Shown piece by piece: positions 2,409-3,280 of a stretch of DNA of 64,000 bases. Position 1 is the stretch's first letter; each line of letters opens with the position of its first letter. Below the pieces are notes generated by a model. It made no database searches. It saw only the letters and a program-made list of their open reading frames with translations, and had not been told where the DNA came from. Source of the stretch: Ideonella alba (GTDB lineage Bacteria; Pseudomonadota; Gammaproteobacteria; Burkholderiales; Burkholderiaceae_C); assembly GCF_018069875.1 (NCBI RefSeq), contig NZ_JAGQDF010000002.1, forward strand, positions 186,001 to 250,000. Direction: 5' to 3'. The position numbers and the translations under genes are program-made.

Positions 2409-2493
2409 GCCCAGGTGGCGGAATTGGTAGACGCACTAGTTTCAGGTACTAGCGCTGAGAGGCGTGGAGGTTCGAGTCCTCTCCTGGGCACCA
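2409..2493 (+). tRNA. tRNA-Leu(CAG), copy 1
   Basis: An 85-nt tRNA with encoded CCA. The acceptor stem GCCCAGG pairs with CCTGGGC. The anticodon stem CTAGT/ACTAG encloses the loop TTCAGGT, giving anticodon CAG, which reads CTG, the dominant Leu codon in this GC-rich genome. It has a long variable arm as expected for a class II tRNA, and a T-loop TTCGAGT. Its last 21 nt recur downstream in a tandem repeat. Confidence 0.98.
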
Positions 2494-2500
2494 AGCATAC

Positions 2501-2531
2501 AAAGGCCAGCATGCACATGCTGGCCTTTTTT
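2501..2531 (+). terminator. Intrinsic terminator of tRNA-Leu copy 1
   Basis: Stem GGCCAGCAT/ATGCTGGCC with loop GCAC, followed by six T. It lies 8 nt after the tRNA CCA. Confidence 0.93.
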
Positions 2532-2652
2532 GCTTGGAGGCCAGGAAGCAAGGCCCACTGCGGGCCTTGCGCGAGGACGAGAAAGGCCGGGCATGCAGGC
2601 CCGGCCGGGGTCGCGCCCATGTGACCGAGTCCTCTCCTGGGCACCAAGCATA

Positions 2653-2684
2653 CAAAAGGCCAGCACGAGAGTGCTGGCCTTTTT
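2653..2684 (+). terminator. Second terminator in repeat array 1
   Basis: Stem GGCCAGCAC/GTGCTGGCC with loop GAGA, then five T. Relative to the first hairpin a T-A pair has become C-G, a compensatory change that keeps the stem. Confidence 0.9.
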
Positions 2685-2732
2685 GCATGGGCGCGACGCT
2701 GGTCGCGGTGCCGCTCGAAAAGTGGATGCGCG

Positions 2733-2762
2733 TTTCAAGTCGCTTGAAATCCATGCTATAGT
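2733..2762 (+). promoter_or_regulatory. Probable promoter of second tRNA-Leu(CAG)
   Basis: A -10 box TATAGT (2757-2762), identical to that of the first copy, has only a poor -35 match (TTCAAG, 2734-2739, 17-bp spacing). The tRNA starts about 40 bp downstream. Confidence 0.5.
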
Positions 2763-2802
2763 TCAAGGCTCTGCTGATGACGAAAGTCTTCAACGCAGAC
2801 AT

Positions 2803-2887
2803 GCCCAGGTGGCGGAATTGGTAGACGCACTAGTTTCAGGTACTAGCGCTGAGAGGCGTGGAGGTTCGAGTCCTCTCCTGGGCACCA
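2803..2887 (+). tRNA. tRNA-Leu(CAG), copy 2
   Basis: Identical over all 85 nt to the first copy (anticodon CAG, encoded CCA). The region 5' of the tRNA differs from that of copy 1 apart from the -10 hexamer, so the similarity starts at the mature 5' end and runs on through the downstream repeats. Confidence 0.98.
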
Positions 2888-2894
2888 AGCATGC

Positions 2895-2925
2895 AAAGGC
2901 CAGCACGGAAGTGCTGGCCTTTTTT
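2895..2925 (+). terminator. Intrinsic terminator of tRNA-Leu copy 2
   Basis: Stem GGCCAGCAC/GTGCTGGCC, loop GGAA, then six T. Confidence 0.93.
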
Positions 2926-3047
2926 GCTTGGGGGCCAGGAAGCAAGGCCCACTGCGGGCCTTGCGCGAGGACGAGAAAGGCCGGGCATGCAAGCCCGGCC
3001 GGGGTCGCGCCCGTGTGACCGAGTCCTCTCCTGGGCACCAAGCATGC

Positions 3048-3078
3048 AAAGGCCAGCACGGAAGTGCTGGCCTTTTTT
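3048..3078 (+). terminator. Second terminator in repeat array 2
   Basis: Same hairpin and T run as at 2895-2925, one 153-bp unit later. Confidence 0.9.
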
Positions 3079-3200
3079 GCTTGGGGGACAGGAAGCAAGG
3101 CCCACTGCGGGCCTTGCGCGAGGACGAGAAAGGCCGGGCATGCAGGCCCGGCCGGGGTCGCGCCCGTGTGACCGAGTCCTCTCCTGGGCACCAGGCATGC

Positions 3201-3231
3201 AAAGGCCAGCACGGAAGTGCTGGCCTTTTTT
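3201..3231 (+). terminator. Third terminator in repeat array 2
   Basis: Same hairpin and T run, closing the array. Confidence 0.9.
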
Positions 3232-3280
3232 GCTTCCGGTGCGACCGACCGCAGGCCGATCGCGGCGGTGCCATGACGAA

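Follow-up and report, generated by a model that had tools for sequence, protein, structure and literature searches.

A host-matched tRNA-tail element with a conserved three-way-junction core follows tRNA genes in Ideonella alba and distant bacteria

Why should the 3′ end of a tRNA recur at a fixed spacing downstream of an intact tRNA gene? The question is raised by a locus of Ideonella alba lying in a window of 64,000 nucleotides (contig NZ_JAGQDF010000002.1, positions 186,001 to 250,000), where a preliminary description had pointed out two identical tRNA-Leu(CAG) genes, each followed by repeats of its last 21 nucleotides at an exact 153-bp spacing, with an intrinsic terminator after each tail and two further hairpins between units. 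These observations held on re-examination. ARAGORN and sequence comparison recovered the two identical genes, and the 21-nt tail CGAGTCCTCTCCTGGGCACCA occurred five times in the window, always on the + strand (2473 and 2626; 2867, 3020 and 3173). Successive copies are 153, 241, 153 and 153 bp apart, and the pairwise identity of full 153-bp units is 145/153 or 151/153. Terminator-type inverted repeats followed every tail (starting at 2501, 2654, 2895, 3048 and 3201), four of the five being recovered by a consensus scan that did not list the one at 2654, and strong inter-unit hairpins were found at 2548-2570 and 2585-2606 (Table 1).

The open reading frames listed over the array (minimum 120 aa) were frames read through the tRNAs and repeats, and the phosphoribosyltransferase gene downstream of the array is convergent. 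The repeats were rejected as further tRNA genes or pseudogenes, as ARAGORN and the Rfam tRNA model found just the two tRNA-Leu genes here and there was no cloverleaf with an anticodon arm. A DNA search of the own genome listed this array and two other places, whose matches were confined to the tRNA part of the query. Hammerhead-like letters lacking stem II at 2774-2788, before the second tRNA-Leu, are kept in the closest relatives (genomes G001 and G013) and not in the other leaders compared, and were set aside on inspection. Elsewhere in the window, the - strand carries a sucA RNA motif (RF01070, 34492-34575) and a cluster of six tRNAs (40687-41409) comprising Leu(TAA), four Gly(GCC) and Cys(GCA).

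Table 1. Features of the tRNA-Leu(CAG) array, in window coordinates.
Feature	Position	Strand	Basis
Sigma-70-like promoter of first tRNA-Leu (candidate)	2323..2352	+	Consensus scan, 10/12
tRNA-Leu(CAG) gene 1; tail (from T-loop C56) begins 2473	2409..2493	+	ARAGORN, Rfam tRNA
Terminator-type hairpin and T run after tRNA 1	2501..2531	+	Inverted repeat, consensus scan
Element 1	2540..2646	+	Fold; model R2 match 2575-2632, 66.1 bits
Exact copy of tRNA-Leu 3′ end, C56 to A76	2626..2646	+	Sequence repeat
Terminator-type hairpin after copied tail	2654..2683	+	Inverted repeat; absent from consensus scan list
tRNA-Leu(CAG) gene 2, identical to gene 1; tail begins 2867	2803..2887	+	ARAGORN
Terminator-type hairpin after tRNA 2	2895..2924	+	Inverted repeat, consensus scan
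Element 2	2934..3040	+	Fold; model R2, 66.1 bits
Terminator-type hairpin	3048..3077	+	Inverted repeat, consensus scan
Element 3	3087..3193	+	Fold; model R2, 65.7 bits
Last terminator-type hairpin	3201..3230	+	Inverted repeat, consensus scan

Each copied tail was found to belong to a larger folded element. Folded separately, all three units gave the same structure (z against shuffles -4.8, -3.9 and -3.4), in which hairpin A is followed by a T-stem-like helix, P1, that encloses hairpins B and C in a three-way junction. The core consists of these three helices and the joiners GAAA and GG, with hairpin A outside the junction. In element 1, an acceptor-like helix is formed by the arm CCAGGA (2541-2546) and the copied tail at 2635-2640, P1 is GAGGAC/GUCCUC (2573-2578 with 2629-2634), hairpins A and B are the two inter-unit hairpins given above, hairpin C spans 2609-2626, and the element ends in GCACCA with the CCA at 2644-2646. 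The arm, P1, hairpin C and the distribution of the element had gone unnoticed in the preliminary description. The corresponding parts of element 2 are hairpin A at 2942-2964, P1 at 2967-2972 with 3023-3028, B at 2979-3000, C at 3003-3020 and the tail copy at 3020-3040; those of element 3 are A at 3095-3117, P1 at 3120-3125 with 3176-3181, B at 3132-3153, C at 3156-3173 and the tail copy at 3173-3193, its acceptor-like arm having one change and pairing over 5 positions. Because the arm pairs with the copied tail, that tail is one strand of the element's own helices, and in the predicted fold the outer helices rebuild an acceptor/T-stem-like shape ending in CCA. When a longer stretch including both flanking terminators was folded, the terminators paired together around the unit, indicating that other folds compete in a long transcript.

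Substitutions among relatives bore out the predicted stems. In an alignment of 34 sequences, 91.7% of stem cells were paired, 42 cells had changes at both partners where shuffles gave 14.2, and sliding the partner columns by 1-3 lowered pairing to 41.5% or less. In the window the inner helix has G-A beside A-G where most relatives pair U-A and C-G, and columns 5 and 6 of the alignment, which hold these positions, contain 12 unpaired cells each. Ratios of G-U to A-C on the tRNA strand were 42:18 for hairpin A, 11:6 for B and 42:4 for C, in counts that ignore shared descent and, for hairpin C, include a nearly invariant G-U pair; the fifth pair of this hairpin was G-U in 75 of the 78 elements with both sides readable, among 112 that had not been fetched by pattern. 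The excess of G-U over A-C points to an RNA of the tRNA strand, with shared ancestry as a caveat. Some of the loci behind the core model R2 had been picked by a sequence pattern, so that part of the sequence conservation of the core was selected for.

The tRNA region was matched in all 16 genomes of the genus, some of these loci ending at contig ends, and inspection revealed the element in four of them (the own genome, G001, G013 and G015). The related-genome search that the preliminary description had proposed thus located a unit or a related element after tRNA-Leu in three other genomes, and the array is not an artefact private to one contig. G001 carries one unit after the first tRNA-Leu and none after the second, showing that the number of units differs between sister genomes. 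At the family level, a covariance model of the element, R1, was matched in 18 of 399 genomes and 8 of 141 genera, mostly after tRNA-Leu(CAG), with two genomes (G154 and G237) having elements also after tRNA-Ser(GCT), Ser(GGA), Met(CAT) and Leu(CAA). A DNA query with the element alone matched 28 of 299 family genomes, eight of them with matches of at least 76 nt; the remaining matches were short hairpin matches and were dropped. Model R2 was matched in 8 of 399 genomes of the order and in 1 of 274 of the class, the own genome, in scans that scored 10-15 candidates per genome and in which absence is therefore weak evidence. Within the own genome, where few candidates were likewise scored, R1 and R2 matched the core three times, all in this array, and a dispersed palindromic repeat of the REP type was rejected since the core is not scattered. 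The rnr-tRNA-Leu-PRT-purA locus carries the element in several families, being occupied in some relatives and empty in others, a pattern that would fit either an old resident often lost or repeated gain. The patchiness at each level (4/16 in the genus, 18/399 in the family, 8/399 in the order) argues against an essential role.

Beyond the family, a pattern scan of named genomes yielded at least 80 loci (80 listed of 120 stretches) with 87 matches. Among those listed, tRNA-linked matches came from Pandoraea, Burkholderia, Cupriavidus, Trinickia, Paraburkholderia, Bordetella, Alcaligenes, Herbaspirillum, Noviherbaspirillum, Methylotenera, Elusimicrobiota, several Patescibacteria and one deltaproteobacterial MAG. 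A same-strand tRNA lay within 300 nt upstream in 60 of the 87 listed matches, and an opposite-strand tRNA was nearby in none. The 27 listed matches lacking such a same-strand tRNA were set aside, some being at contig ends or part of arrays (for example loci L102 and L128) and others, in actinobacteria and elsewhere, resembling chance; three matches in viral contigs, none with a tRNA just upstream, were also taken as chance. When 19 of the pattern-scan loci were folded and viewed singly, they showed mostly the same kind of structure. The core model R2 had 1-9 copies in each of 15 carrier genomes from several phyla, and three carriers with nine matches each have 44, 32 and 40 tRNA matches, so that a minority of tRNA genes have an element. 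The lengths of hairpins B and C differ widely in Patescibacteria (L139 and L112), and hairpin B of L139 contains an inner direct repeat. At L036 and L037 (about 1600-1700), the element is followed by a perfect hairpin ending in CACCA, like a bare acceptor-type minihelix, and then by a second copy of the tRNA terminator. Searches of open-licence papers showed no description of the element among the papers listed.

We then compared each tail with the tRNA gene ahead of it. After dropping overlapping locus duplicates, two partial matches (L286 and L287), weak second matches at L280, L136 and L294, a cut match in L128 and the duplicate genome L143, 157 distinct elements were counted. A same-strand tRNA was present within 600 nt upstream of 141 (within 100 nt in 122 of these), and several of the other 16 are near a contig or stretch end. 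The host tRNAs were of 30 kinds by isotype and anticodon, Leu(CAG) accounting for 72 of the 141. The 18-nt tail matched its own tRNA at 16/18 or better in 71 of 141 elements, against 2 of 13,276 comparisons with other isotypes, and the own tail outscored every other-isotype tail in 84 of 141. This was also seen with Leu(CAG) excluded, where the own tail reached at least 16/18 in 34 of 69 elements and outscored every other-isotype tail in 43. At the tRNA-Sec gene of L299, P1 adopts the unusual GGGAGUCG/CGACUCCC of the selenocysteine tRNA.

The reverse-complement arm followed the host less closely. An inverse acceptor arm matching at 7/8 or better was found for the own tRNA in 74 of 141 elements (22 of 69 excluding Leu(CAG)) compared with 418 of 13,276 other-isotype comparisons. 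An acceptor partner pairing at 7/7 with G-U allowed was present in 74 of 141 against a 5.0% control (15 of 69 outside Leu(CAG)), while the laxer 6/7 threshold gave 104 of 141 against a high control of 38.8% for other isotypes, and a T-stem partner at 5/5 was present in 48 of 141 against 14.4%. Both acceptor strands were good in 36 elements, the inverse alone in 38, the direct alone in 44 and neither in 23. The direct copy matches more often than the arm, and we regard the copy as a strong rule and the arm as a weaker one.

The preliminary description had likened the layout to that of the E. coli tyrT region, with no sequence relation seen. The likeness is deeper than noted, for rtT also closes by a copied tail and an upstream reverse-complement arm. 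In folds of the K-12 rtT copies, three are closed by a helix of about 10 pairs between the copied tRNA-Tyr end and its reverse complement, and the K-12 annotation places the 3′ end of RttR at the CCA of a tRNA-tail copy. RtT (RF00391, rttR of the tyrT operon) and the window element thus share tandem units in a tRNA trailer, a copy of the tRNA 3′ end through CCA, a reverse-complement arm pairing with that copy, and internal hairpins. According to passages of PMC4986893, transcripts of tRNA operons release RtT RNAs, which are found near other tRNA genes too, and passages of PMC2965389 relate rtT to enterobacterial repeats; the hosts named in these passages are E. coli, Actinobacillus and enterobacteria (PMC4986893, PMC2965389).

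The absence of a sequence relation was upheld by comparison of covariance models. RF00391 had zero matches in the window at its gathering score of 45 bits, and none in 2300-3350 at E up to 5, and gave four matches of 133-138 bits in the E. coli K-12 tyrT control. Conversely, R2 gave non-significant matches of about 4 bits at three of the four E. coli rtT copies and zero matches up to E 10 in 30 RtT loci. These 30 were the best-match loci (L303-L332) from a Gammaproteobacteria sample in which 50 of 274 class genomes had RF00391 matches, 18 of them over the cut-off; 25 follow a tRNA (Tyr 6, Ser 13, Gln 6), of which 21 contain at least 15 nt of their own tRNA end, a figure that has no other-isotype control. 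Several of these loci are tandem arrays. In our folds the RtT core is a chain of hairpins that has neither hairpin A nor a three-way junction, whereas the window core has both, and the RtT tail copy mostly begins at A58, whereas that of the window element begins at C56. The window element is an RtT-like layout with an unrelated core and is not a member of Rfam RF00391. That two unrelated cores sit in one type of bracket suggests that the tRNA-like end is what both need.

Other known systems resemble the element in part. Sponges of the 3′ETS-leuZ type are short trailer fragments of tRNA transcripts and act by pairing with small RNAs; they are like the element in being trailer-derived, which is putative for the element, and differ from it in that they are not known to have a copied tRNA tail or a conserved core. 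Where a tRNA 3′ end serves as an integrase attachment site, a second copy of that end is left downstream of an intact gene, as in genomic island scars. In the window, however, 153 bp separate the tail copies with no integrase or cargo between them, leading us to reject a tRNA-site integrated element, and the element also differs in its conserved folded core, its reverse-complement arm, its many isotypes and the clustering of its cores by genome. Rfam matches that fell short of their gathering scores (LAGLIDADG-2, Thr_leader, OmrA-B and others) were rejected, the LAGLIDADG-2 RNA (RF03094) having a weak likeness in the succession of hairpins at 25-30 bits against a gathering of 94.9.

From the structure, spread and host matching observed above, we infer for expression, processing and function the following reading, to which we assign a probability of roughly one half: the unit would be a conserved, host-matched tRNA-tail RNA, made by read-through, trimmed by tRNA enzymes, spreading between tRNA genes and locally multiplied. 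The element would be transcribed as part of the tRNA trailer, with read-through carrying transcription past any terminator in between, and its RNA would fold as a mimic of a tRNA tail; RNase P would cut ahead of the acceptor-like arm and 3′ trimming to CCA would leave an rtT-like small RNA. The element would also move among tRNA genes, adopting the tail of each new host, and recombination between repeats may have multiplied it at the tRNA-Leu(CAG) genes of the window. Several observations count against this reading. Both acceptor strands are good in 36 of 141 elements, so that a rebuilt acceptor-like helix is not universal, and a strong terminator-type hairpin separates each tRNA of the window from the element that follows it. 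Others are the patchy distribution, the competing fold of the longer stretch and the grouping of some cores by tRNA across genomes.

How the element spreads bears on the foremost alternative. Among 69 cores from 15 genomes, a core had its nearest neighbour inside its own genome in 32 of 66 cases, where permutation gave a mean of 5.3 and a maximum of 16, and in a different genome under the same anticodon in 6 of 47, where permutation gave a mean of 1.5 and a maximum of 8. Likeness between cores is thus greater inside a genome than across genomes at one tRNA. Copies therefore seem to have been moved or homogenised within a genome, with tails following the local tRNA and some vertical signal left. 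The alternative is a selfish tRNA-homing DNA or RNA element, of no use to the cell, whose insertion after a tRNA 3′ end would duplicate some 18-25 bp (from C56 to near the end of the tRNA) and spare the tRNA itself, and whose folded core would be the site recognised by its mobility machinery. We consider this explanation possible but doubtful. It is consistent with the patchy presence, the one to nine copies in small genomes after different isotypes, the clustering of cores by genome and the tandem arrays in the window, L097 and others; in addition, 26 of the 33 direct copies of at least 18 nt have their ends between -2 and +4 relative to the tRNA end. No gene lies inside the element, however, and there is no consistent mobility-enzyme partner among the two families sought in the 15 carriers: reverse transcriptase (PF00078) is present in 9 and Y1 transposase (PF01797) in 7, and neither is present in G409 (9 matches), G414 (5) or G412 (1). 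Plain target duplication also leaves the reverse-complement arm unexplained, and occupation of the rnr-tRNA-Leu-purA locus in several families fits long residence.

An improbable alternative is that the array is a transcription insulator, in which stacked terminators and hairpins stop read-through from the tRNAs and antisense transcription from the convergent phosphoribosyltransferase gene. The terminator-type hairpins after every tail would serve this purpose on the + strand, and hairpin B, read on the - strand with the TTTC behind it, is a terminator-like match in all three units (2585-2606, 2979-3000 and 3132-3153) and could act on antisense transcripts. Yet an insulator has no need of a three-way junction conserved across phyla or of a host-matched tail, and many carriers leave little room for a terminator ahead of the element, the gap between tRNA and element being at most 60 nt for 36 of the 58 elements in the non-Burkholderiales set against 3 of 83 in the other set.

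It is very unlikely that the repeats merely arose, without function, when tRNA 3′ ends recombined or slipped in replication, or when templates were switched at the palindromes of terminators. Such an origin agrees with near-identical units, with copy numbers differing between sister genomes and with the long inverted repeat that tail, terminator and arm form in some carriers (L106), but cannot alone yield the same core after unrelated tRNAs in different phyla, nor compensated stems. This reading is largely refuted for the core and may still account for the copy number and for the origin of the reverse-complement arm; likewise, the chance assembly or recent slippage weighed in the preliminary description fails for an element whose core is conserved across phyla, while slippage or recombination may explain the number of copies in the window.

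The favoured reading of a host-matched, tRNA-trimmed RNA may extend to a wider class, which we put forward tentatively and with less confidence than that reading itself: unrelated cores, the three-way junction and that of RtT among them, would have been independently bracketed by host tRNA ends, re-tailed on moving and cut out with CCA ends by the tRNA maturation enzymes. Such a class would be defined by a shared tRNA-like end, and would be open to RNase P and CCA-end assays. Burkholderiales, Elusimicrobiota and Patescibacteria show the rtT layout around another core, after 30 kinds of tRNA and with tails that follow the host, which raises the question of how one element repeatedly acquires the tail of a new tRNA gene. 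The element looks like a widespread, little-described kind of tRNA-linked RNA.
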